Source: Streptomyces sp. SCL15-4 (GTDB lineage Bacteria; Actinomycetota; Actinomycetes; Streptomycetales; Streptomycetaceae). Taken from it: a stretch of DNA of 64,000 bases. The position numbers were made by a program, and so were the translations under genes. The DNA lies in NCBI RefSeq assembly GCF_033366695.1, contig NZ_JAOBTQ010000001.1:5146001-5210000 (forward strand). Reading direction: 5' to 3'. The notes beneath the pieces were generated by a model. That model was not told where the DNA came from, searched no databases, and worked only from the letters and a program-made list of their open reading frames with translations. How positions within the stretch are numbered: position 1 is the stretch's first letter; every line of letters starts with the position of its first letter. This document shows positions 1 through 11,139 of this stretch, in pieces.

Positions 1-918
1 GTCGCGCTCGCCGCCGCGCGCGGCTTCGACGTGCCCGAGGCGGCCCGGGCGCTGGAAGGGGCCAGGCCCACCGCGGTGAACCTGTCCGTCGGTGTGCGCC
101 GGGCCGAGACCGCGTACCAGGCGGCGCTGGCCCGAACCGGTGACCCCACCGCGGCGGCCGTGGCGGCACTGGCGGCGGCGCGGGCGCTGCACCGGGAGGA
201 CGCCGAGGCCAGCGCCCGGATGGCGGCTCACGGGCTGGCGCTGCTGGACGAACTGCTGCCGGCCGGCGGGCACCGGATCCTGACCCACTGCAACACCGGC
301 TCGCTGGTGTCGGGCGGGGAGGGCACGGCCTTCGCGGTGGCGCTCGGCGCGCACCGGGCGGGGCGGCTGCGGCGACTGTGGGTGGACGAGACACGGCCGC
401 TGTTGCAGGGCGCGCGCCTGACGGCGTACGAGGCGGCCCGCAGCGGCATGGCGTACACCCTGCTCACCGACAACGCGGCGGGCTCGCTGTTCGCGGCGGG
501 CGAGGTGGACGCGGTGCTGATCGGCGCGGACCGGATCGCGGCCGACGGATCGGTGGCGAACAAGGTCGGCAGCTATCCGCTGGCCGTGCTCGCCCGCTAC
601 CACCATGTGCCGTTCATCGTGGTGGCGCCGGTGACGACGATCGACCCGGACACCCCCGACGGCGCCTCCATCGAGGTCGAGCAGCGCCCCGGCTTCGAGG
701 TGACCGAGGTCGTGGCACCCCAGGTGGCGACGGCCGGGGCGGCGAGCGGGATCGCGGTGGCGCCGCTCGGGACACAGGCGTACAACCCGGCGTTCGACGT
801 GACGCCCCCCGAACTGGTGACGGCCATCGTCACCGAGGAAGGGGTCGTCTCCCCGGTGACCGCCGAGTCCCTTGCCGAGGTCTGCGCCCGTTCACGCCGC
901 ACCGCGGACCCCGCATGA
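1..918 (+). CDS. mtnA: methylthioribose-1-phosphate isomerase (5' end outside window)
   Basis: MtnA isomerises 5-methylthioribose-1-phosphate to the ribulose form in the cytosolic methionine salvage pathway. The frame is open from base 1, so the start codon lies upstream; about 305 C-terminal residues are present. The segment HCNTGSLVSGGEG carries the catalytic Cys of the family, and GADRIAADGSVANKVGSYP carries the catalytic Asp and the conserved binding loop; the fold is eIF2B-alpha-like. The gene ends 22 bases before the left repeat of the integrated element, which now separates it from mtrA. The eIF2B-like superfamily includes related sugar-phosphate isomerases, but these motifs favour MtnA. 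Confidence 0.93.
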   Translation, partial: VALAAARGFDVPEAARALEGARPTAVNLSVGVRRAETAYQAALARTGDPTAAAVAALAAARALHREDAEASARMAAHGLALLDELLPAGGHRILTHCNTGSLVSGGEGTAFAVALGAHRAGRLRRLWVDETRPLLQGARLTAYEAARSGMAYTLLTDNAAGSLFAAGEVDAVLIGADRIAADGSVANKVGSYPLAVLARYHHVPFIVVAPVTTIDPDTPDGASIEVEQRPGFEVTEVVAPQVATAGAASGIAVAPLGTQAYNPAFDVTPPELVTAIVTEEGVVSPVTAESLAEVCARSRRTADPA

Positions 919-939
919 GCAGGCCGCTTCCGGCGGCCG

Positions 940-1030
940 GGGGCAGACAGTGACGGCCCTGTACGACTAGAGTCACCGGCCAGTGACCTGCCTCACCAGG
1001 GCGCCTGTCGCTGTTATGAGGAATGGGATG
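940..1030. repeat. left flanking repeat of integrated element (attL-like, copy of mtrA 5' region)
   Basis: This segment is an imperfect direct copy of 6440-6529. The first 17 bases (GGGGCAGACAGTGACGG) are identical, then GTACGACTA, then GTCACCGGCCAGTGA, with about four-fifths identity overall and one single-base length difference. It ends in GAATGGGATG, the bases at the mtrA start. The segments between these blocks differ, so this is not a perfect att duplication. It fits a left attachment site in which one copy is host and the other came with the element, or an old event that has since diverged. Confidence 0.7.
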
Positions 1031-1051
1031 CTCTCGCCCTTGGTGACGGAA

Positions 1052-1093
1052 ACGGCCCCTCTACCTGCGACGATGCGCGAGGAGAGGGGCCGT
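1052..1093 (-). terminator. hairpin downstream of integrase
   Basis: Perfect 11-bp inverted repeat ACGGCCCCTCT / AGAGGGGCCGT (1052-1062 and 1083-1093) with a 20-base loop. It begins 18 bases past the integrase stop on the minus strand, where a factor-independent terminator is expected. There is no clear T-tract. Confidence 0.5.
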
Positions 1094-1110
1094 GACATCC
1101 AACGGCTACA

Positions 1111-2319
1111 TCAAGCGGCGGATTCCAGATCCGATCGAGCGGCTTCCAGCTCCCGGATGCGGGCCGGCTGGCGGAGCAGCCGATCGAGCTGTGCCACCGC
1201 CTCCACGACATCCGGGTCCAGAGCCTCGGCGTAGATGTCCATCGTCGTGGTGATCCGGCTGTGCCGCAGGATCGCCTTCACGATCCGCGGGTGCACCCGG
1301 AGATGGACGAGCAGGGTGCCGCAGGACTTGCGCAGTCCCTTCGGGTTCATCTTGCCCAGTCCCTCCTTCTTGATGATCCGTTGCAGGACCAGGTAGAGGT
1401 GGACCGGTGAGAGTGGACGGCCGGTCCGAGTCACGAACACGTGCCCGTCGGGATCTTAGAACCAGGGGCGCCCCCGGCTGATGGCGCGCTCGCGCAGCAT
1501 GGCCGTCCGTATGCGTGCCCAGCGGAGAGGAGCGATGCACTGGGCGGGCAGTGGCAAGGGTGCTTTCGACGTCTCGGTCTTGAGTTCCGTGTCGACCGTG
1601 CCCGCGCTGGCCCGCTGTCGCTGCTTCTCGACCCAGATGATGCGGTTGTCCAGGTCGATGCTCTCCCAGCGCAGCCCGCACACCTCGGCACGTCGCAGGC
1701 CGAGGAGACAGAGCAGGAGGAAGGCCGGGTAGTACGGAGTCAGGCGACGAGCAGCAGCCAGGAAGCGCAGCACCGTCACGGCATCCCAGCTCTTGCCGCT
1801 GTCGGTGGTCGCGCGGACGTGCACGAGCTTGGCCACGTTGCGAGTCAGGCCGATGTCTTCCACCATCGCGGCCGTGAGCGCGGCTGAGAGAACGCGTAAA
1901 GACCGCTTGGCTGTCTTGGCCCCTTGATCCTCTGCGAGTGCCTGTACGGCCCCTCGTAGCTCCGTGACGCCCAGCTTGACCATGACCTTGGACCCGAGGC
2001 GGGGCCTGAGATGGTGTCGCACGGCTGTTTCGTACGCGCGGTAGCTGTTGGGCGCCAGGTTGGGCTTCACCACGACCTGGAGCCAGTAGTCGAACCACTG
2101 CCCCAGCGTCATGTCGCGGGTTGGCGTAGGGATGCCGCCGGCAGCGCGGTCCAGGAGTTCCCGGCGCTTCCGGTCGCACTCGTCGTAGGTCTTGCCGTAG
2201 GCGAACTTGCGTTTGGTCGTTCCATCCGGCTGCGGGACGTACACCGCCGCTTGGTACCGGCCGTCAGCGCGCCTCGTGACGGTGCCGGAACCGTTGGGGT
2301 TGCGCTTGCGCGGAGGCAT
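1111..2319 (-). pseudogene. int: tyrosine site-specific integrase, interrupted by in-frame TAA
   Basis: Phage/AICE-type tyrosine recombinase that would catalyse integration and excision. Read through, it is about 402 residues: an N-terminal arm-binding region, a SAM-like core-binding domain (about 70-165) and the catalytic domain. The first catalytic Arg lies in GLRRAEVCGLRW (about residue 209). The C-terminal part has a KGLRKS box (Lys replaces the usual first His), LRHS and the nucleophile in DIYAE. A TAA at 1458-1456, in the same frame, splits the protein into 287-residue and 109-residue pieces after SRGRPWF and so separates R from the HxxR/Tyr box. Its ATG overlaps the xis stop (TGATG). 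Likely inactive unless the stop is a sequencing error or is read through. Confidence 0.88.
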
Positions 2320-2463
2320 CAGGAAGCCTCCTCAAGCCGTGTGCGGATGTACTCCTGGACGGCACTTTCGGGGATGCGCCGGCACCGGCCTTCCGTGAAC
2401 GACGCCAGACGTTTCGAGCGGATCAGGTCGTACACCTTCGAGCGGCTGTACTTGAGCGGGTAG
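2319..2463 (-). pseudogene. xis: excisionase (Xis, AlpA/MerR-like HTH), 5'-truncated
   Basis: The C-terminal ~48 residues match the short helix-turn-helix excisionases of pSAM2-type elements: YSRSKVYDLIRSKRL is the HTH core and GRCRRIPESAVQEYI the wing. No start codon or N-terminal part belongs to it. Upstream, at the GAGGAACTACCCG junction, the sequence passes directly into rep in another frame, so a deletion removed the end of rep and the start of xis. It normally steers the integrase towards excision; here it sits one base before int. Confidence 0.75.
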
Positions 2464-2790
2464 TTCCTCCCGGGCGATCTCGCGGCTGTGCTGGATGTCG
2501 CGGCGGATGTTGGCGGCGAGCCAGGACTCACCGGGGGTGTGGCCGTGGCCGGCGTAGGTCCAGTGGGCGAGGGTGAGCGTGGTCGCTTCCTCGTCGTCGG
2601 GGTCGGGCAGGCCGAAGGCGGCGCGTTGCTGGGCGGCGCGGTAGTCGGCGCGGGTCTGGCGGAGTGCGCCGAGGGTGGTGGAGTAGCGGCGGGACTTGGT
2701 GGAGAAGTGGCCGCGGAAGCCGAGCATGTGCGCCCAGTCGCGGAGCTTGCGGTCCGGGTAGAGCGGATGCAGGTCCAGGCATGCCCACCC
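2464..2790 (-). pseudogene. AICE replication initiator (RepSA-like), C-terminal fragment
   Basis: About 105 residues in one minus frame match the C-terminal end of actinomycete rolling-circle replication initiators: the WAHMLGFRGHFSTKSRRYS signature, then LTLAHWTYAGHGHTPGE and DIQHSREIAREE. The family is usually above 400 residues, so the catalytic domain is missing. The upstream end is cut at about 2790, where a plus-strand GntR fragment begins; the downstream end is cut at the xis junction. It marks the element as a decayed AICE that can no longer replicate on its own. Confidence 0.72.
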
Positions 2791-3419
2791 ACGGCGTGGC
2801 TCGTATGACCGCACGCCAAGCGCTCGGCGTACTCCAGAACGAAGGTCTTGCGGAGTCTCGCAAGGGCGCCGGCGTGTTCGTGCGCGCCTTCAAGCCGCTC
2901 AGGCGGCGAGGCATCCAGCGGCTATCCCGCGACCAGTGGGGCTCGGGCCGTTCCATCTGGTCGGCGGACATCGAGGACCGCACCCTTGTGGTCGACCAGG
3001 TGCAGGTCTACGAGGCGACTGCACCCGAACGGATCAGTCAGGTGCTGGACATGGAGACCGGAGCGCCGACATGCGTGCGCAGCCGCCGTTTCGTCCTGGA
3101 CGACAAGCCTGTTCTTCTGTCTACCTCATACCTTCCCGCGGACCTGGTGGCAGGGTCGGCGATCACCCAGGAAGACACCGGCCCCGGTGGCACGTACGCC
3201 CGGCTGGCCGAGTTGGGCCACAAGCCCGTGCACTTCCGTGAGGAGATCCGTTCCCGGATGCCGTCGCAGGAGGAGGCGAACCGCCTTCAGCTCTCTATGG
3301 GCACTCCAGTGATCATGGTGTGCCGCACGGCATTCGCCGACGAGGGGCGTCCCGTTGAGGTGAACGAGATGATCCTCGACTCGGCCGCGTACGTGTTGGA
3401 GTACGACTTCGACGCCTGA
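2781..3419 (+). pseudogene. KorSA-like GntR-family regulator, N-terminally truncated
   Basis: The first usable ATG gives 212 residues. Homologous sequence starts at GVARMTARQALGVLQNEGL, the recognition helix of a GntR winged helix, and runs into a complete UTRA ligand-binding domain ending VLEYDFDA. The first helices of the DNA-binding domain, about 40 residues, are absent, and upstream lies antisense rep sequence. In pSAM2 the homologue KorSA represses the pra activator of replication and transfer. Here DNA binding is probably impaired. It converges with the NERD gene, which starts one base after this stop. Confidence 0.72.
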
Positions 3420-4037
3420 TCAGCCGACCCAGGTACCCGCGTCTCGCGCCACGCCGTAGATGTGGGCAACCTGGTCGGAGGAGAGCGCCGGTGACAGGCC
3501 CGACAGAACTTGGTCGAGGTGTTCCACTTCCAGGACGAGGACTGGCGGGTTGGCGTTTTTGACCTTCAGTTTCGCCGCGTGGACGACCGAGATCACGGGG
3601 CGGACGGGAATCTCCATGCCGCCCCGTCGCGTCAGGGCACGAGACACCCGGCGTGCTTCGGACTGGCTGATCGCGATGTGGCGCTGCACGGCCCCGTTCA
3701 CGGTGATGGCAGCGTCGCCGTACCAGACGGACTTACCCCGGTGCCGCTTGGAATTGATGGAGAAGACGCCGGCCGGACCAATGGCGAGGTGGTCGATGTC
3801 GGCGCCGCTGGCCCACTGAATGGCGTGGAAGATGTACCAACCGCGTCTGCGGAGCCTGTCCAGCCGTCGACCAGTGACACGCTCCCCCACGAGCCCATCC
3901 GACCAGCTACGAATCTCCGACCGAGGCGACCAGCGCTCAGCCAGTCTCAGCAGCGGGTTCGGCTGTAGTTCCCGGATCTTGCGTCGCACCGCGTCGCCCG
4001 GACGGTTCCTCGCCAAGTCGCCTGCCAGCAGTTGCAC
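3420..4037 (-). CDS. NERD domain protein
   Basis: A 205-residue protein with a nuclease-related (NERD) domain: GERVTGRRLDRL, RGWYIFHAI, GADIDHLAIGPAGVFSINSK and RHRGKSVW follow the family pattern G-E....D-h-D-h-h...Q/K. The short residue-1-to-50 leader has no recognised domain, and no helicase or kinase domain is fused. NERD domains are related to restriction-endonuclease-like folds and are common on plasmids and in anti-foreign-DNA loci. Its place inside the decayed AICE makes it element cargo. The precise activity is unknown. Confidence 0.75.
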   Translation of the reverse strand: MQLLAGDLARNRPGDAVRRKIRELQPNPLLRLAERWSPRSEIRSWSDGLVGERVTGRRLDRLRRRGWYIFHAIQWASGADIDHLAIGPAGVFSINSKRHRGKSVWYGDAAITVNGAVQRHIAISQSEARRVSRALTRRGGMEIPVRPVISVVHAAKLKVKNANPPVLVLEVEHLDQVLSGLSPALSSDQVAHIYGVARDAGTWVG

Positions 4038-4390
4038 CCTGCCCCCTCGTGTGCGCGTCGATGCCAGACCACCACGGAGGCTTACCGAGTCAAAGAGCCA
4101 TATCGGCCAGGAGCTGTTACAGGTTTCTCTACCTCATCAAGCCCCGGCTGCGCTCCGCTCCGCCGGGTGCGCTTCCCGGCTGCGCCGCGGGCGATGCTCC
4201 TGCCTCCGGCCCGCTCCGCCCGCGCTGCGCCGACGCGCGCCCGCACGTGGATATGGCCGGCAGCCATGAGTCGAGCACCGCACATCGCTCACCTGACGGT
4301 CAGGACAGTGCCTTCGGCGGGGGATCGGCCGGCACCGGGATGGCGGGGGCGCCGTCGCCGGCCGCGGGCGTGTAGTGGCGTGCGCGGGGT

Positions 4391-4540
4391 GCTCCCATCC
4401 CGTCCACCGTCGCCCCAGGCAGAGCCGAGCAGACGCGGCCCATGGCGTCCAGGTCGTTCGTACAGTGGTGCGCTCCACCTGGACGCCATGAACCACGCCC
4501 GCTCCACGGTGTGTGGGTCGACGGCGGACGGGATGGGAGC
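4391..4540. repeat. 150-bp nested inverted repeat in non-coding AICE DNA
   Basis: The outer arms 4391-4412 and 4519-4540 are inverted copies matching at 21 of 22 bases. The inner arms CATGGCGTCCAGGT (4441-4454) and ACCTGGACGCCATG (4477-4490) pair perfectly over 14 bases around a 22-base loop. The intervening 28-base stretches are equal in length and also pair at more than half of positions. The whole could fold into one long hairpin in single-stranded DNA or RNA. It lies in the 670-base stretch 4038-4707, which holds no credible gene. By position it may be a single-strand origin, sti-like or transfer locus; that is inference. Confidence 0.75.
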
Positions 4541-4661
4541 TGGGGTGAGTGGTGGCTTAAGGAGAGATAGTGCCGCATGGCACAAGAATTGAGACACCCT
4601 CTCAGCGATCTCCGGTAAGGCGCCCCGAAGTAGCTCCAGTCCAGAACCGTTCTGTGGACCT

Positions 4662-4702
4662 CTCCTTGATCACAGGCGTACGGTGGGGCCAGTATCAAGG
4701 AG
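4662..4702 (+). promoter_or_regulatory. inverted repeat covering a ribosome binding site
   Basis: CTCCTTGAT (4662-4670) pairs perfectly with ATCAAGGAG (4694-4702) around a 23-base loop. The right arm contains the AAGGAG Shine-Dalgarno of the membrane protein starting at 4708, so in RNA the stem would hide the ribosome binding site. It could equally be a protein operator. Confidence 0.55.
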
Positions 4703-4707
4703 TGCTG

Positions 4708-5187
4708 ATGCGTGTTGAAACCGTAACGGCGTTGGTCACTGCGGCAGGTGCACTGATCGTGGGATCGGCAACAGCCTGGGCTGCGCTTAGATCTGCAAAT
4801 TTGGCACAGGCCGACAAGCTGTTGCAGGCCATGAAAGACGAAGCCGCCCTGCTTGCCGAACTACCTGAGGGCTCGGAGGCGCGGCGTGACCTTCAAGCGC
4901 ATCTGGAGTGGATGACTAAGCGGTATGTGCCTGAGCGTGCAGTACAGGTACAGGTCAAGGTCGACAAATCATATATGATCCTCGGTCTGTTGCTTGGAAC
5001 GGCGTGTGTCGCCCTCATCTACTGGATGGTCCGACTCGGAGGCTGGGCTCTGTGGGCGCTCGTGCTGCTCGTGCCGCTGTTTCTAGTGTCCTTGTACGGC
5101 TTCGTTTTCGAGGCTTCCGGTGGCGACAGCCGAGAGCGGCTCATGAGCGAGGCAGCCGCTGCCGACGGTAAAGATGGAGCCGAGTAA
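4708..5187 (+). CDS. small membrane protein of unknown function
   Basis: A 159-residue protein with three hydrophobic stretches. An N-terminal segment (VTALVTAAGALIVGSATAWA) is followed by a charged, probably cytoplasmic helical region of about 65 residues with a Val-Gln-rich stretch. A pair of closely spaced helices follows (GLLLGTACVALIYWMV and LWALVLLVPLFLVSLYGFVF), then an acidic tail. The ATG at 4708 is chosen because AAGGAG precedes it by five bases; an open frame extends upstream but lacks a ribosome site. It belongs to the AICE remnant and its codon use is less GC-biased than flanking core genes. No family recognised. Confidence 0.6.
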   Translation: MRVETVTALVTAAGALIVGSATAWAALRSANLAQADKLLQAMKDEAALLAELPEGSEARRDLQAHLEWMTKRYVPERAVQVQVKVDKSYMILGLLLGTACVALIYWMVRLGGWALWALVLLVPLFLVSLYGFVFEASGGDSRERLMSEAAAADGKDGAE

Positions 5188-5445
5188 ATGGTTCCGGGGG
5201 ATTTGTCAAGAGTTGCTGTTCCCCTTGACACCAACTACTCAACAACAGCGGTGGATGAAGGCGGACGGGGTGGATGTTGGCGACCACTTCGACGCCGAAC
5301 CATCAAGGTACTGCAGCGCTTAGAGAACGGCATGATCGACCTGATGAGGATGAGGGTCGAAACCTGTTCCAGGCGGGGTGCCGTTCAATCGATGGGCGGC
5401 GCCCCGTCAGCTTGACTCGGCCATTGAGACTCCGCCTGCTGCGCG
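5188..5445. other. no supported gene
   Basis: A 75-codon plus-strand frame abuts the preceding stop (TAAATG) but has no ribosome site, no domain and unremarkable composition. It is not called as a gene. Lower GC than the surrounding chromosome. Confidence 0.5.
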
Positions 5446-5490
5446 AAAAAACGTGGGCTGTTGGGTCATCAACGACTCAACAGCCCACGT
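5446..5490 (-). terminator. intrinsic terminator of the 44-codon gene
   Basis: Perfect 13-bp stem (ACGTGGGCTGTTG at 5451-5463 with its complement at 5478-5490), 14-base loop, followed on the minus strand by six T residues. It starts 8 bases after the TAG of the small gene upstream. This is the clearest classical rho-independent terminator in the window. Confidence 0.85.
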
Positions 5491-5497
5491 CTGCCCG

Positions 5498-5632
5498 CTA
5501 CCGGCGCAGAAGGACGCGAAGGACTTCAGTGATGTCCTTGCGGTTACAGCACAGGAGAGCCAGAACCCCGAAGGTCAGGAAGACCACCAGGCTGAGCGCG
5601 ATGAGTGCGACCGTGATTTCGTTTTCGAGCAT
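5498..5632 (-). CDS. 44-residue single-pass membrane protein
   Basis: The protein begins MLENEITVALIALSL, has one hydrophobic helix (about residues 7-28) ending in Cys-Cys, then a basic amphipathic tail NRKDITEVLRVLLRR. The tail resembles the (D)IxxVLRAL...RR end of many tiny Streptomyces membrane proteins found beside mobile elements. A strong intrinsic terminator directly after the TAG supports expression. An AGG lies 11 bases before the ATG, inside the right arm of an 8-bp hairpin. Function unknown; it is short enough to be missed by length-filtered gene calling. Confidence 0.6.
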   Translation of the reverse strand: MLENEITVALIALSLVVFLTFGVLALLCCNRKDITEVLRVLLRR

Positions 5633-5638
5633 GCGAAT

Positions 5639-5661
5639 CTATGCCTCTCTTACAGGCATAG
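5639..5661. repeat. 8-bp inverted repeat upstream of the 44-codon gene
   Basis: CTATGCCT (5639-5646) and AGGCATAG (5654-5661), perfect, with a 7-base loop, 7 bases before the start codon. It could be an operator, or an RNA hairpin holding the weak ribosome site. Confidence 0.55.
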
Positions 5662-5932
5662 AACGGCATGGTTCACCAGGCGAGCCCGCTGCGGCTCTTC
5701 ACACCAGCGCAATCTACGTGTGGATGGTTGAGGTACTGCTTCAGAAGTAAGCGGATCTCAATTGTACGGCACCAGTGCGGTACAGCAGCGGAGTACAGCA
5801 ACCCTGGTGATCCCTGGCGGCCCTACTGAACCGCAGGGGCCCACATGAGCAGGTCGGACGATGTCGGATGACCTCAGCGACCGCCCCGCCCGTAGTTCGC
5901 ATCGAGGGGCACGTAGGGCGAGGGACTGTGGC

Positions 5933-6367
5933 TCAAGCCGTGATCCGACGGTCGTTGCCCCAGTACACGAGGAGGGTTCGCCGGCGGGCCCTCTTCAGCT
6001 GGCCCAGCAGGCGGGCGTAGTCCTCGTCAGGTGTCTGCCAGCGGGAGTCATCCCAGTCCAGGGCCAGGTATGGTTCCACCGCTGCTAGCGCTGCCCGCAT
6101 CTCCTGGGTTGCTTCGTAGTAGCGCTCGAAGCCCCTGAGCGGTAGTTCCAGCTGGTAGCGCAGTGCCTCGTCACTGACGCCGATCTCGCTCTGGCGCACT
6201 TGCCTCGGGTAGGTTGCAGCCAGCTCGGCCCGGCGCACACATGCGATCGCGCGATCGATGGCCTCGCGACGAGACGTCTGCCAGCCGAAACGCGTGGCCG
6301 CCAACGGAGCGAACAGCGCCCCTACCAGGACGCCGGCCAGCGCGAGCACGGGGCCAAGCCAAGTCAT
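5933..6367 (-). CDS. hypothetical protein with N-terminal membrane helix
   Basis: A 144-residue protein from the ATG at 6367. An N-terminal helix (MTWLGPVLALAGVLVGALFAP) leads into a soluble domain of roughly 120 residues rich in Arg, Glu and aromatic residues (RREAIDRAIACVRRAEL, LDWDDSRWQTPDEDYARLLG), probably helical. An alternative ATG at 6427 would add 20 residues (MMSATDVSPVD) ahead of the helix. GGAGG lies 13 bases before the 6367 start, farther than usual. It is the last gene of the inserted element before the right repeat. No known family recognised. Confidence 0.6.
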   Translation of the reverse strand: MTWLGPVLALAGVLVGALFAPLAATRFGWQTSRREAIDRAIACVRRAELAATYPRQVRQSEIGVSDEALRYQLELPLRGFERYYEATQEMRAALAAVEPYLALDWDDSRWQTPDEDYARLLGQLKRARRRTLLVYWGNDRRITA

Positions 6368-6439
6368 ACCCTCTGATCCCCCTCCAAGTCTGTGGTCGAC
6401 CGGGCTGACATCCGTCGCTGACATCAACGTCCCCGGACA

Positions 6440-6529
6440 GGGGCAGACAGTGACGGTTCGGTACGACTATCGTCACCGGCCAGTGAGCCTGCTCACCTGC
6501 GCCTCTGTCGTCGTTACAAGAATGGGATG
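6440..6529. repeat. right flanking repeat (attR-like), contains mtrA promoter region and start codon
   Basis: Partner of 940-1030. It shares GGGGCAGACAGTGACGG, GTACGACTA, GTCACCGGCCAGTGA and GAATGGGATG. The latter runs into the first mtrA codon at 6527. The inverted pair GTCAC...GTGA within it could serve a regulator. All DNA from here on is host chromosome. Confidence 0.7.
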
Positions 6530-7216
6530 ATGTCGTTTATGAAGGGACGAGTCCTTGTCGTCGACGACGACACCGCACTGGCCGAGATGCTCGGCATCGT
6601 GCTGCGTGGTGAAGGTTTTGAGCCGTCTTTCGTAGCCGACGGCGACAAGGCGCTGGCCGCTTTCCGTGAGAGCAAGCCCGATCTTGTGCTGCTCGACCTG
6701 ATGCTGCCCGGCCGGGACGGCATCGAGGTGTGCCGGCTGATCCGGGCGGAGTCCGGGGTGCCGATCGTGATGCTCACGGCCAAGAGCGACACCGTGGATG
6801 TGGTGGTGGGCCTGGAGTCGGGGGCCGACGACTACATCGTCAAGCCGTTCAAGCCGAAGGAGCTGGTGGCCCGGATCCGGGCCAGGCTGCGCAGGTCGGA
6901 GGAGCCGGCGCCGGAGCAGCTCACCATCGGTGACCTGGTCATCGATGTCGCCGGACACTCGGTGAAGCGGGACGGGCAGTCGATCGCGCTGACCCCGCTG
7001 GAGTTCGACCTGCTGGTCGCGCTCGCGCGCAAGCCGTGGCAGGTGTTCACGCGTGAGGTGCTGCTGGAGCAGGTGTGGGGCTACCGGCACGCGGCCGACA
7101 CGCGGCTTGTCAACGTGCACGTCCAGCGGCTGCGTTCCAAGGTCGAGAAGGACCCGGAGCGGCCGGAGATCGTGGTGACCGTCCGTGGTGTCGGTTACAA
7201 GGCCGGGCCGAGCTGA
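6527..7216 (+). CDS. mtrA: two-component response regulator MtrA
   Basis: OmpR/PhoB-type regulator of 229 residues. It controls development, cell-wall homeostasis and antibiotic synthesis in Streptomyces. The receiver domain (about 7-120) has the acidic pair in VVDDDTALAEM, the phosphoacceptor Asp near residue 57 in LLDLMLPGRDG, Thr in MLTAK and Lys in VKPFKP. A winged-helix output domain (about 135-225) includes REVLLEQVWGY and VHVQRLRSKVE. The start MMSFMKGRVL is the usual Streptomyces one. The mtrB start follows the stop by one base. The promoter lies in the right repeat, so an inserted element now sits immediately upstream. Confidence 0.97.
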   Translation: MMSFMKGRVLVVDDDTALAEMLGIVLRGEGFEPSFVADGDKALAAFRESKPDLVLLDLMLPGRDGIEVCRLIRAESGVPIVMLTAKSDTVDVVVGLESGADDYIVKPFKPKELVARIRARLRRSEEPAPEQLTIGDLVIDVAGHSVKRDGQSIALTPLEFDLLVALARKPWQVFTREVLLEQVWGYRHAADTRLVNVHVQRLRSKVEKDPERPEIVVTVRGVGYKAGPS

Positions 7217-7217
7217 C

Positions 7218-9317
7218 ATGTCCGGGGACAGTGCCGCTTCGGCTTCCGGCGGGCCCGGGAACCGTCCGGGGCGGCCTGTCGGCCGGACGGCGGTGGGCGC
7301 GCGCCTGAGGAGGCTGTTCGAGCGCGGGCTGGTGCGGGGCGGGGTGCAGGGCAGCCCGGTCCTGCGGCTGTTCCTGCGCTGGGTGCGCCGTCCGCTGCTG
7401 CCCGTGATGCGGTTGTGGCGGCGCAACATCCAGCTCCGGGTCGTCGCGACGACCCTGGTGATGTCGCTGGGCGTCGTTCTGCTGCTCGGCTTCGTTGTCA
7501 TCGGGCAGGTCCGCAACGGCCTGCTGGACGCGAAGGTGAAGGCGTCGCAGAGCCAGGCCACGGGCGGGTTCGCGGTGGCCAGGCAGAAGGCCGACGAGGC
7601 GGCGAGCGGCACGGGCGCCGGCGGTGCGGCCGGTACCGGTGACGGCACGGCGACCGCGGACGGACGGCAGTCGCAGAACGTCATCCAGTGGATGAGCGAC
7701 CTCGTGGAGTCGCTGTCCAGCGGCGGCGCGGGAGCGTTCGACGTGGTGACGCTGCCCGTCGGCGACGACAGCGGCGGCGGACGCAGCCCGCGCGGCTCCG
7801 GGAACGTCAATCCGACGTCCAGCGTGCCCGCCGAGCTGCGCGAGCGGGTCAACAGCGGCACGACGGCCGTGCAGAGCAACACGCGGATCGTCTACTCCGG
7901 CGGCAAGGAGTCGCAGCCGGGCCTGGCCATCGGCAAGCAGGTCAACGACCCCAACGGCCGCCCGTACGAGCTGTACTACCTCTTCCCGCTCACGCAGGAG
8001 GAGAAGTCCCTCAGCCTGGTCAAGGGCACCCTCGCCACGGCGGGGCTGTTCGTCGTCGTCCTGCTCGGCGCCATCGCCTGGCTGGTGGTGCGGCAGGTCG
8101 TCACGCCGGTGCGGATGGCGGCCGGGATCGCGGAGCGGCTGTCCGCCGGGCGCCTGCAGGAGCGGATGAAGGTCACCGGCGAGGACGACATCGCGCGCCT
8201 GGGCGAGGCCTTCAACAAGATGGCGCAGAACCTCCAGGTCAAGATCCAGCAGCTGGAGGATCTGTCGCGGATGCAGCGGCGGTTCGTCTCCGACGTCTCG
8301 CACGAGCTGCGCACCCCGCTGACCACCGTCCGCATGGCCGCGGACGTCATCCATGAGGCGCGCGAGGACTTCGACCCGGTGACGGCGCGGTCCGCCGAAC
8401 TGCTCGCCGACCAGCTGGACCGGTTCGAGTCGCTGCTCGCGGACCTGCTGGAGATCAGCCGGTTCGACGCCGGCGCCGCCGCGCTGGAGGCCGAGCCGAT
8501 AGACCTCAGGGAGGTCGTGCGGCGGGTGGTGAGCGGCGCCGAGCCGCTCGCCGAGCGCAAGGGCACACGCGTACGGGTGGTCGGCGACCAGCAGCCCGTC
8601 GTCGCCGAGGCGGACGCCCGGCGCGTGGAGCGCGTCCTGCGCAACCTCGTCGTCAACGCGGTCGAGCACGGCGAGGGCAAGGACGTCGTCGTCAAGCTCG
8701 CCGCCGCGGGCGGGGCGGTGGCCGTCGCCGTACGCGACTACGGCGTGGGCCTGAAGCCGGGCGAGGCGACCCGGGTCTTCAGCCGCTTCTGGCGGGCCGA
8801 CCCGGCACGCGCGCGGACCACCGGAGGCACGGGTCTCGGGCTGTCCATCGCGCTCGAGGACGCGCGGCTGCACGGCGGCTGGCTGCAGGCCTGGGGCGAG
8901 CCCGGCGGCGGCTCCCAGTTCCGGCTGACGCTGCCGAGGACCGCGGACGAGCCGCTGCGGGGCTCGCCGATACCGCTGGAGCCGAAGGACTCGCGGCGCA
9001 ACCGCGGCCTCGACGAGGCCGGCCGGACGCGCGGGAACGAGGAGAAGCGGGCGACCGTCCCGGTGCAGCAGGCCGGCGCGTCGGCGTCCGCGCTGCCGCC
9101 GAGGGAGCCGATCGCGCCGCGGCTGGCCGGCGCCCCGGCCGCCGACCCGACTGCCCTGCCCGGCAACGGAGCGCGCGTGGTGCCCCGGCCCACCGGCGGC
9201 GTACGGCGTCCCGGTGACGGCCCGGCCACCCGTCCGGCGCCCGACGAGGGACGGGCCCGGCCGGACGCCGCGCCGCAGGACTCGACCGAGCCAGGGGAGG
9301 CATTTCGTGGCCGCTGA
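7218..9317 (+). CDS. mtrB: sensor histidine kinase MtrB
   Basis: A 699-residue membrane kinase that phosphorylates MtrA. After a basic N-terminus, a first membrane helix (VVATTLVMSLGVVLLLGFVV) is followed by an extracytoplasmic sensor of about 175 residues. Then come a second helix (LFVVVLLGAIAWLVV), HAMP, HisKA with the phosphorylated His at about residue 362 (SDVSHELRTPLTT), and HATPase_c with N-box NLVVNAVEH, DYGVGL and GTGLGLSIA. A Pro/Ala-rich tail of about 110 residues follows. The ATG at 7218 is preferred over an in-frame GTG at 7185 that overlaps mtrA. The 3' end overlaps lpqB by 11 bases. Confidence 0.96.
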   Translation: MSGDSAASASGGPGNRPGRPVGRTAVGARLRRLFERGLVRGGVQGSPVLRLFLRWVRRPLLPVMRLWRRNIQLRVVATTLVMSLGVVLLLGFVVIGQVRNGLLDAKVKASQSQATGGFAVARQKADEAASGTGAGGAAGTGDGTATADGRQSQNVIQWMSDLVESLSSGGAGAFDVVTLPVGDDSGGGRSPRGSGNVNPTSSVPAELRERVNSGTTAVQSNTRIVYSGGKESQPGLAIGKQVNDPNGRPYELYYLFPLTQEEKSLSLVKGTLATAGLFVVVLLGAIAWLVVRQVVTPVRMAAGIAERLSAGRLQERMKVTGEDDIARLGEAFNKMAQNLQVKIQQLEDLSRMQRRFVSDVSHELRTPLTTVRMAADVIHEAREDFDPVTARSAELLADQLDRFESLLADLLEISRFDAGAAALEAEPIDLREVVRRVVSGAEPLAERKGTRVRVVGDQQPVVAEADARRVERVLRNLVVNAVEHGEGKDVVVKLAAAGGAVAVAVRDYGVGLKPGEATRVFSRFWRADPARARTTGGTGLGLSIALEDARLHGGWLQAWGEPGGGSQFRLTLPRTADEPLRGSPIPLEPKDSRRNRGLDEAGRTRGNEEKRATVPVQQAGASASALPPREPIAPRLAGAPAADPTALPGNGARVVPRPTGGVRRPGDGPATRPAPDEGRARPDAAPQDSTEPGEAFRGR

Positions 9318-11139
9318 CCGCGAGGGGGGCGCACGGCGGCGGCCGGTGCGCGCGGTGGCGTACGCCGCCTTGGGCGTCGTCCTGCTGGCCGGTTGCGCCT
9401 CGATGCCCGACAGCGGGGACCTGCGGGATGTGGAGTCCACGCCGCGTCAGGACACCGGGGTGCGGGTGTTCGCCGTGCCGCCGGCCGACGGTGCCGGTCC
9501 CGGCGAGATCATGCAGGGCTTCCTGGAGGCGCTGACCAGCGACGACCCGGAGTACGACACGGCGCGCAAGTACCTGACGACCGACACGGCGGGCAGCTGG
9601 CGGCCGGAGCAGTCGACCACCGTCCTGGCGAACGGGCCGAGCATCGAGACCGACTGCAGCCCGGGCGGCCGGGAGGAGACCAACAGCGTCACCTGCGTGC
9701 TGACCGGCACCCGGGTGGCCACGGTCGACGCCCAGCAGGCCTACCAGCCCGCCGGCGGTCCCTACCGCACGAAGCTGCACCTGACGAGGGATTCCAAGAG
9801 CCGGCAGTGGCGCATCGACGGGCTGCCCGACGGCGTCGTCATGGGCAAGTCGGACTTCCAGCGCAACTACACGTCCGTCGACAAGTACTACTTCGCCTCC
9901 CACACGTCGGTCGGGGCGGGCGGGCAGCCGGTGGCGGTCGCCGATCCGGTGTTCGTACGCAGCAAGGTGGACCCGATGACGCAGATGGTCCGGTCGCTGC
10001 TGAACGGGCCCACCACCTGGCTCGGGCCGGTGGTCAGGTCCAGCTTCCCGACCGGTACGCAGCTGCGGAAGGGCGTGTCCGGGCTGGCACCGGACGACCA
10101 GAACAGGCTGACCGTGCCGCTGAACCTCAAGGCGTCCCGGGTCGCGTCCGGCAAGTGCGCCGAGATGGCGACACAGGTGCTGTTCACCCTGCGGAACCTG
10201 GCGCCGACGCTGGAGTCCGTCGAGCTGCGCGGTACCGGCGGCGACCGGCTGTGCGAACTGACCAAGGAACGCGCCGAGTCCGCCGCCTGGCACGGGCCGT
10301 CCAAGCGCCCCGAGTACGTGTACTTCGTCGACGGCAGGCACCGGGTGGTGCGGATGCCGACCGGGAGCACCGGCACGGGTTCCGTCCCGGTGCCGGGTCC
10401 GCTCGGCGAGGGCGGCAAGGAGCTGCGGTCGGTGGCCGTGTCGCGGGACGAGCACACCGCGGCCGGGGTCGCCGACGAGGGCGGGTCGCTGTACGTGGCC
10501 TCGCTGGCGTCGGGCGGTTCGCTCGGCGCGGCGCTGGTCACCAGCGACGGCGCCACCCCCGACGAGCGGCTGACCACTCCCAGCTGGGACGCCCGGGGTG
10601 ACCTGTGGGTGGCCGACCGCGACCACCGCCGGCCCGGCCTGTACGTCCTGGAAGAGGGCGAGAAGGACGTGGTGCGCGTCGCCGTCCCCGACCTTCCGGG
10701 CCGGATCACGGACGCCCGGGTGGCCGCCGACGGGGCACGGATCGCGCTGGTCGTGGACAGAGGCGGCAAGCAGTCCCTGTACATCGGCCGGATCCAGCGC
10801 GACGACGGCACCGGACAGGGCATCTCGGTGGACGGGCTGCGTTCGGCGACCCCGGACCTGGAGCAGGTCAGCGCCATGTCCTGGGCCGGGGACAGCAGGC
10901 TGCTCGTCGTCGGCCAGGAGCAGGGGGGCGTGCAGCAGATGCGGTACGTCAAGGTCGACGGGTCCACGCTGGACGGCCCGGCCCCGGGCGCGCTCACCAG
11001 CGTCAAGGCGATCGCCGCGTCCGAGGACGAGCGGGTGCCGCTGGTGGCGTACTCGGAGGACGGGATCGTGCGGCTGCCCTCCGGGGCGCAGTGGCAGAAG
11101 GTCGACAAGGACGGGTCGGCACCGGTCTACCCGGGCTGA
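9307..11139 (+). CDS. lpqB: lipoprotein LpqB, MtrAB accessory factor
   Basis: A 610-residue secreted lipoprotein that in actinobacteria interacts with the MtrB extracellular domain and tunes MtrA phosphorylation. GTG start with GGGAGG six to seven bases upstream. The signal peptide ends in the lipobox LLAGC, followed by ASMPDSGDL. A GerMN domain follows (about residues 195-320, including FVRSKVDPMTQMVRSLLNGP), then a beta-propeller-like C-terminal half with repeated blocks such as PSWDARGDLWVADRD. It is translationally coupled to mtrB (11-base overlap), completing the mtrAB-lpqB operon. Confidence 0.95.
   Translation: MAADREGGARRRPVRAVAYAALGVVLLAGCASMPDSGDLRDVESTPRQDTGVRVFAVPPADGAGPGEIMQGFLEALTSDDPEYDTARKYLTTDTAGSWRPEQSTTVLANGPSIETDCSPGGREETNSVTCVLTGTRVATVDAQQAYQPAGGPYRTKLHLTRDSKSRQWRIDGLPDGVVMGKSDFQRNYTSVDKYYFASHTSVGAGGQPVAVADPVFVRSKVDPMTQMVRSLLNGPTTWLGPVVRSSFPTGTQLRKGVSGLAPDDQNRLTVPLNLKASRVASGKCAEMATQVLFTLRNLAPTLESVELRGTGGDRLCELTKERAESAAWHGPSKRPEYVYFVDGRHRVVRMPTGSTGTGSVPVPGPLGEGGKELRSVAVSRDEHTAAGVADEGGSLYVASLASGGSLGAALVTSDGATPDERLTTPSWDARGDLWVADRDHRRPGLYVLEEGEKDVVRVAVPDLPGRITDARVAADGARIALVVDRGGKQSLYIGRIQRDDGTGQGISVDGLRSATPDLEQVSAMSWAGDSRLLVVGQEQGGVQQMRYVKVDGSTLDGPAPGALTSVKAIAASEDERVPLVAYSEDGIVRLPSGAQWQKVDKDGSAPVYPG

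Follow-up and report, generated by a model that had tools for sequence, protein, structure and literature searches.

Decayed actinomycete integrative and conjugative element at the mtnA-mtrA junction of Streptomyces sp. SCL15-4 and its likely role in exchange of the mtrA promoter region

The region upstream of mtrA was investigated in a stretch of 64,000 nt from Streptomyces sp. SCL15-4, here called the window, whose positions are used for all coordinates. The block between mtnA and mtrA is a decayed remnant of a pSAM2-type actinomycete integrative and conjugative element (AICE), and its features are listed in Table 1. An earlier note, made from the letters alone, had read int, xis, rep and korSA fragments in this block; these are confirmed by domain matches, to which a gene for a NERD-domain protein can be added. 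A repeat search of the window found a single 83 nt repeat family at the ends of the block (934-1016 and 6434-6516), the two copies being 80% identical with a spacing of 5500. With the core included, the direct repeats extend over 934-1030 and 6434-6529 at about 81% identity, both ending in AATGGGATG, which can be read directly at 1022-1030 and 6521-6529. The shared words of 17, 9 and 15 bases that the note had reported at the two ends are indeed present (GGGGCAGACAGTGACGG, GTACGACTA and GTCACCGGCCAGTGA, plus GAATGGGATG). When the right copy was used as the query against the whole genome the left copy was matched with E = 6.5e-18, which excludes a chance resemblance.

Table 1. Features of the mtnA-mtrA locus, in window positions
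Feature	Position	Strand	Basis
3' part of mtnA (S-methyl-5-thioribose-1-phosphate isomerase), flanking the site on the left	31..918	+	TIGR00512, E 1.2e-87, above cut-off
Left arm copy (B arm of attL), an older scar that very probably served as the mtrA promoter before its displacement by 5.5 kb	934..1021	+	80-81% to right copy
attL core AATGGGATG	1022..1030	+	In attL of 18/18 elements
P' hairpin, terminator-like, between the core and the int 3' end	1052..1093	+	Folds in 18/18 elements
P' arm-type repeat TGACATCC .. CTACATCAAG, second unit degenerate; putative integrase arm site	1093..1115	+
Tyrosine integrase gene (int) with in-frame TAA at 1456-1458 (N piece 1456-2319, C piece 1111-1440)	1111..2319	-	Open reading frames, domain and relatives searches
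Remnant of xis (HTH_17), lacking at 2454-2457 about 75 bp that intact elements have	2319..2463	-	Domain match and element alignment
RepSA-type replication initiator, C-terminal end	2456..2784	-	PF20199, E 3.8e-26; NF041486 profile positions 338-442/443
Deletion junction, about 5.6 kb (against G200) to 6.5 kb (against G393) gone	2781..2785	.	Element comparison
korSA-like GntR/UTRA regulator, truncated helix-turn-helix	2781..3419	+	PF07702, E 1.4e-25; GntR below cut-off
NERD-domain protein, cargo common to the G200, G393, S. griseofuscus and S. ipomoeae elements	3420..4037	-	Domain and homology searches
Stretch matching none of seven related elements; hypothetical open reading frames 4570-5187 (+) and 5933-6427 (-)	4563..6400	.
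P arm-type repeats TGACATCC and TGACATCAAC, 13-bp period; putative integrase arm sites	6406..6428	+	In the 11 flanks taken as element-bearing and in the free attP
Right arm copy, element-supplied putative upstream promoter/operator of mtrA (P arm of attR)	6434..6520	+	Sequence comparison
attR core AATGGGATGATGTCG, holding the putative -10 of leaderless mtrA	6521..6535	+	Published transcription start position (PMC5487470, PMC13189361)
mtrA, probable start 6539; longest open reading frame from 6527	6539..7216	+	NF040689, E 1.7e-119

The regions upstream of mtrA were compared at 111 loci, one per genome (genomes are numbered G and fetched loci L). These fall into 51 with an arm of the type found in the window (type 1, T1), 28 with a short junction (class B), 19 with a second type of arm (T2) and 13 others, ten of the latter being from outside the genus; locus L116 is counted as T1. 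T1 loci were picked from the best matches, and class-B loci from high-scoring matches and the 'relatives' set, so that these counts are not frequencies. When only the genus members of the 'relatives' set are counted, these 36 genomes have 21 class-B, 11 T1, three T2 and one other locus. In 27 of the 28 class-B loci mtnA ends from 4 bp past to 20 bp before the mtrA start, typically reading ..GTAACGATTAGCTAATGGGATGATGTCG.., and in the remaining locus, G012, the junction sequence is present and mtnA is absent there. On this comparison of sequences, the class-B junctions are the empty integration site. An insertion had been proposed in the earlier note, and its relatives without the block are these 28 junctions; the block is thus not something that all relatives carry at this place. 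The opposite explanation, that the block is old shared mtnA-mtrA sequence and that no insertion took place, has a negligible probability. Nothing was found in its favour, it is refuted by the empty sites, and an integrase of at least 75% identity is present in only 7 of 392 genus genomes, the window included.

Integrase relatives were sought in these 392 genomes with the open N-terminal integrase piece of the window as the query. Matches with E <= 1e-50 occur in 104 of them, and in all six non-self genomes at 75% identity or more the match is at the mtnA-mtrA site, as identified by tblastn of mtnA in five and by the junction sequence and mtrA in G167. In five of the six mtrA is at the far end; the contig of G151 breaks, and its mtrA, which is on a different contig, carries a T1 arm. 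A scan of named genomes, in which 79 loci were kept from the best 80 of 86, has the same division. The 15 loci whose integrase is at least 74% identical all lie at mtnA/mtrA (14 by mtnA and L130 by mtrA and the junction), with mtrA inside the fetched stretch in nine, while none of the 64 loci at 59% or less is located there. A tRNA gene lies within 1.5 kb beyond the integrase match in 57 of these 64 distant loci (Val 30, Arg 16, Thr 8, others 3), two of the seven without having less than 1.5 kb of searchable sequence. There is no tRNA gene within 1.5 kb in any of the 15 close relatives and none in the window, and a tRNA target for this family was therefore rejected. In the phage records the integrases are all below 60% identity to that of the window.

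Four of the 15 named loci duplicate elements of the genus set, giving 18 distinct chromosomal elements, the window included, all of which are at the mtnA-mtrA junction. The hosts include S. griseofuscus, S. cellostaticus, S. aurantiogriseus, S. malachitofuscus, S. odonnellii, S. sabulosicollis, S. californicus, S. cahuitamycinicus and S. ipomoeae. From these positions, the tyrosine integrase of the family is specific for the mtnA-mtrA junction. Nine elements measure 8.8-11.5 kb end to end and that of G120 about 15 kb (hand-derived), and the decayed elements of the window and G123 measure 5.5 kb and 4.2 kb. The G393 element encodes an integrase, an HTH_17 excisionase, RepSA, FtsK/SpoIIIE, GntR/UTRA, NERD and C5 methylase proteins. 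The family therefore has the parts of an AICE: an open recombinase gene with an adjacent attachment site (att) in G393, G200 and others, with cores at both ends; a replication initiator (PF20199, E 1.2e-155 in G393); and a transfer protein (PF01580, E 5.5e-28 in G393, and annotated as FtsK/SpoIIIE on a circle from S. formicae). In the window the first is broken, only the C-terminal end of the second is kept and the third is deleted. A separate case is locus L111 of G230, where an 8.2-kb mtnA-mtrA insert at about 1850-10020 has no detectable integrase of the mtrA-site family and the right arm is identical over 92 bp to that of G200.

The circle from S. formicae, NZ_CP071873.1 (L236), is a circular record of 27,773 bp with an integrase 84% identical to that of the window. 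The junction of int and the element's attachment site (attP) occurs in it twice, at a distance of 10,384 bp, which is what an excised circle would be expected to show, the record being an assembly. Read from the int end, the two units agree over 7,129 bases without a difference and are then out of register. Although deposited as a 'plasmid', the record has the appearance of an excised AICE of 10.4 kb that was mis-assembled into a multimer. Its attP reads TGACATCC-n5-TGACATCAAC, T1 arm, AATGGGATGATGTCG, hairpin, TGACATCC, int. The order on the free attP is thus direct repeats of TGACATC, an arm of about 90 bp, the core, the hairpin, TGACATC-type repeats and int, the repeats being putative integrase arm sites. 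The host site, attB, is AATGGGATG(ATGTCG), directly upstream of mtrA. Because the T1 arm is on the free attP, the arm is DNA of the element, in line with the possibility raised in the earlier note that the right copy had come in with the element. The hairpin between the core and int folds in all 18 elements, with z <= -3.2 in 17 and -1.4 in G167. In the circle the arm faces the 3' end of int from behind this hairpin, and its evident use would therefore be in the integrated state.

The arm is more widespread than the element. With the arm of the window and the mtrA start as the query a match was found in 389 of the 392 genomes. A T1 arm is present at mtrA in at least 103 of the 392 Streptomyces genomes, the window included, where the match starts at or before query position 29; this lower bound is counted among the first 150 matches listed. 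Of these genomes, 98 are without a close integrase and five have one at 75% or more (G000, G393, G200, G151 and G123). The T2 arm is present in 19 of the 392 genomes, from 20 hits of which that in G151 is a weak hit to its T1 arm, and one of the 19, G167, carries the element itself. The 18 T2 loci in a tree of mtrA-mtrB form one clade with a support of 99. This tree has 97 rows, seven outgroup rows of the 111 having been excluded and seven dropped as shorter than 1250 bp. On it T1 needs nine changes, at least six of them forced by starred branches, and class B needs 13, so that gain, loss or exchange has taken place more than once.

A footprint of the TGACATC repeats is found at p <= 0.01 in 20 of 40 T1 loci without an integrase (1000 shuffles each), and 21 of the 40 score above the best upstream control. 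The footprint profile was built from 11 flanks taken as element-bearing, among them that of G230, in which an 8-kb insert was found with no integrase; G230 is counted as a scar in the comparison of arm identity. Conservation of the T1 columns is 0.74-1.00 from -100 to 0, against 0.40-0.53 beyond -110, and the columns from -20 to -1 are at 0.98-1.00 in the T1 scars. The arms in strains without the element look like domesticated promoters.

It could instead be that the arm is a native, lineage-specific mtrA promoter of the host that was captured by the element rather than donated by it. The host side of the 18 readable left attachment sites (attL) is native class-B sequence in nine, which are taken as first insertions, a T1 arm in eight, the window included, which are taken as reinsertions, and another arm in one (DvalAA-14); the arm and the host promoter are thus homologous in 8 of the 18 elements, and many T1 hosts are without an element, as this explanation would have it. 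It is considered unlikely, since the arm is present on the free circle, elements have brought the T1 arm into class-B hosts (S. cellostaticus, NRRL F-525 and, across a contig break, G151), half of the element-free T1 loci tested bear eroded arm repeats directly upstream, and T2, T3 and a fourth arm type accompany integrases of the same family. A native-only origin is rejected by the free attP, the scar footprints and the entry into class-B hosts, while an ancient capture before the radiation is possible.

Three further observations concern loci around these scars. G011 has a class-B mtrA and, at another place (L031, G011:C14, about 9690-9870), an arm whose TGACATC repeats are intact; this arm is upstream of open reading frames of unknown role and is perhaps a relic at a secondary site. 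G400 and G064 each have a second match to the arm and mtrA query, outside the fetched mtrA regions (L105 and L106). At none of the 19 T2 loci (L032, L071, L072 and others) was mtnA found upstream of mtrA, most of these loci being read over about 1.5 kb and three over 10-15 kb.

The position of the core relative to mtrA indicates what integration would do. The mtrA transcript is leaderless in S. venezuelae and S. coelicolor, starting at +1 (PMC5487470), and SCO3014, presumably mtnA, is immediately upstream of mtrA in S. coelicolor (PMC5487470). The right copy adjoins the ATG of the longest open reading frame at 6527, and the likelier mtrA start is ATGAAGGGA at 6539. The sequence ATGAAGGG is found in 100 of 101 genus loci, ATGAAAGG in the remaining one, and the ATGATG is out of frame in some genomes. 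Counted from 6539, residue 53 is an aspartate, and D53 is the residue given for MtrA of S. venezuelae (PMC13189361). The claim in the earlier note that the right copy runs into the first mtrA codon is therefore correct for the ATG at 6527 and fails for the likelier start. Its description of mtrA as an essential-type gene was too strong, since mtrA can be deleted in Streptomyces (PMC5650626, PMC13189361).

The published transcription start site (TSS) places the -10 on GATGAT/ATGATG within the core. Recombination at the shared core, which overlaps this predicted -10 of leaderless mtrA, would therefore exchange the -35 and operator region of the host for the arm of the element, so that the -10 would be retained and everything upstream of it swapped. 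The arm would then drive mtrA, the hairpin would stop transcription from the arm into int in the circle, and decay of the element would leave the arm as the mtrA promoter. In the window mtrA would now be read from an element-supplied arm, which fits the published TSS and the conservation of the arm in element-free strains. The insertion at the mtrA promoter that had been proposed is upheld by the empty sites, the intact relatives at the same place and the free attP carrying the arm. A reported MtrA site, TCTCAAG, is at -34 of the mtrA TSS (PMC13189361), and its reverse complement CTTGAGA is present in 13 of the 19 T2 arms, beginning at -34 in G015. This points to a T2 arm in S. venezuelae, the mtrA promoter of which is probably of this type.

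Retention of the arm for integrase binding only, with mtrA read from mtnA or from the core alone, would account for the bounding of the arm by integrase-type repeats and for left copies that are as well conserved as the right. It is nevertheless improbable, because the arm is conserved in 40 integrase-free loci in which the sequence just upstream is not, and because the mtrA transcripts on record begin at the start codon (+1), the MtrA site lying upstream (PMC5487470, PMC13189361).

The two copies in the window differ from each other (a likeness of 0.81) and appear to have separate histories. On the mtrA-mtrB tree the window joins G126 and G205 first, and then G020, G135 and G016. The left copy, which occupies the attL position where host sequence normally stands, is nearest to scars of its own clade (G135 0.92, G016 0.91, G020 0.91). 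The right copy is nearest to the arms of G188 and G387 (0.95) and, among elements, to that of G200 (0.92). By these comparisons the left copy is an older scar and a second element brought the right copy. The differing blocks between the identical words, to which the earlier note had drawn attention, are explained by copies from two successive elements. The window would thus have carried an old scar, the left copy, very probably once the mtrA promoter, into which a second element inserted, with its right copy now before mtrA; this second element would itself have been broken by the stop in int, the deletion in xis and a deletion of about 6 kb through rep and tra. Other reinsertions agree with this: the left copy of G123 has a likeness of 0.98 to the relative G009, and that of S. 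aurantiogriseus has a likeness of 0.98 to G363.

Two arm copies without an insert, which the note had named as a finding that would speak against integration, are seen only in eroded form: two arms in G017 and a left-arm fragment in G126 and in G205. The G126 gap consists of the mtnA end of the window, the first bases of the left arm, a remnant of the P' hairpin and int end (87% identical to the window over 78 bp) and, after these, the right arm, nearly all else being lost. The G205 gap contains a 32-bp fragment of the left arm. Because G017 and G126 retain remnants of the left end of the element between the arms, these loci look like insertions since lost, and the gaps of G126 and G205 suggest that both were reinvaded and that the second insertions were lost with the arm kept.

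Taken together, it is very likely that the block is the remnant of an mtrA-junction AICE, that recombination at the core swaps the promoter region, that the arm is kept after decay and that the window has been through two rounds of this. Several observations weigh against this reading. The mtrA-proximal arms of G126 and G205 have a likeness of 0.85 and 0.84 to the left copy of the window and of 0.88 and 0.85 to the right; the two copies of G393, at 0.99, do not discriminate. In the seven elements with both copies, the left are no more decayed than the right at conserved columns (left/right counts 1/1, 2/2, 1/1, 2/4, 2/1, 0/0 and 3/1), which gives no sign of relaxed selection on a displaced promoter. 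The other 20 of the 40 scars have no footprint at p <= 0.01, and L102, which passes the footprint test, has a lower score than its own upstream control. Some T1 clades have class-B genomes nested within them, which makes gains, losses and exchange inseparable. A GTNAC-n5-7-GTNAC pattern resembling the published MtrA repeat is present in 34 of the 51 T1 arms (0.19 of 51 expected in shuffles), and it is also in 20 of 28 class-B loci and in none of the 19 T2 arms. A shared MtrA operator is therefore not shown for all types, and a single operator pattern for all arms is unsupported by these counts; a candidate MtrA operator in T1 and class B fits only in part, repeat counts being silent on affinity. 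Lastly, the promoter role of the arm in T1 strains is one that we infer.

The pSAM2-type AICEs have the same modules as the present family (int-xis-RepSA-FtsK/SpoIIIE-GntR, here in 8.8 to about 15 kb), and most members with a tyrosine integrase are at tRNA genes (survey PMC3218068). The present family differs in its location at the mtnA-mtrA junction and in an attP with a promoter-like arm. A pSLS integrase subfamily that does not use tRNA genes has been described (PMC3218068); pSLS is not among the 12 of 55 plasmid integrase-match records that were listed. Elements specific for dusA, such as IMEVchUSA3, provide a new promoter for the gene that they target at its 5' end, as shown by lacZ fusions (PMC8409611). 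The present family likewise inserts at a gene 5' end and supplies new sequence upstream of its target, as in elements of the dusA and prfC type. The dusA elements replace the promoter and N-terminus of a tRNA-modification gene, whereas here only the upstream promoter region would be exchanged, the core overlaps the -10 and the arms persist as scars across the genus. The SXT integrative and conjugative element at prfC also integrates at a 5' end with a new promoter and N-terminus (PMC8409611, PMC3715440), but it is unrelated in element type and target, and the N-terminus is unchanged in the present family. Like the present family, known Streptomyces AICEs in protein genes (rlmN, a glycosyltransferase) show decay and accretion at one site (PMC9513070), and mtrA is not named as a target in the part of that source searched, which excluded its Table S5. 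Elements that donate promoters to 5' targets and AICEs in protein genes are therefore already known (PMC8409611, PMC3715440, PMC3218068, PMC9513070). The literature search, with most subscription papers and supplements outside its reach, found no report of an AICE at mtrA or of attP arms that have lasted as a promoter throughout a genus.

In Streptomyces, MtrA controls both sporulation and the production of antibiotics. It is probable, with rather less assurance than for the events at the window, that this mobile family has repeatedly and permanently replaced the mtrA promoter and autoregulatory operator across the genus, with several arm types becoming fixed and MtrA control varying thereby. 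The mtrA promoter that has been studied by experiment in S. venezuelae appears to be the T2 arm, which is fixed in one clade. If this is true, species differences in MtrA autoregulation have a concrete and testable cause, and results may not transfer between S. venezuelae, which apparently has a T2 arm, and S. coelicolor, which apparently has the ancestral junction. The attP arms look pre-adapted to serve the target gene, and they outlive the element. The integrase and attP pair is a candidate single-site integration tool.

The int-xis region of the element in the window is 79-85% identical to seven related elements and the RepSA end is 80-91% identical in DNA to six. Most of rep, the FtsK/SpoIIIE (TraB) gene and the start of korSA were lost at the deletion junction. 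At the right end, beyond about 6400, there are matches to six of the seven, the stretch of the seventh, S. griseofuscus, stopping short of there. The two hypothetical open reading frames in the unmatched stretch have no Pfam or NCBIfam match. The element should not excise or transfer alone, help in trans being possible. Read-through of a TAA has been proposed for a Frankia AICE int (PMC3218068), so the stop in int is by itself no proof of inactivity.

Some smaller features were also seen. Loci L004 and L105 (G013 and G400) have similar sequence in mtnA-mtrA gaps of 1.2-1.3 kb, perhaps a small coding insert. In the window, a 36-bp stretch at 4111-4146 has 100% identity to the SID13726 element (32 bp to Act143) and is possibly a transfer or replication origin. 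At 4391-4540 there is a large inverted repeat of two 73-nt arms, 77% complementary with a 4-nt loop, which has matches in five of the seven related elements.

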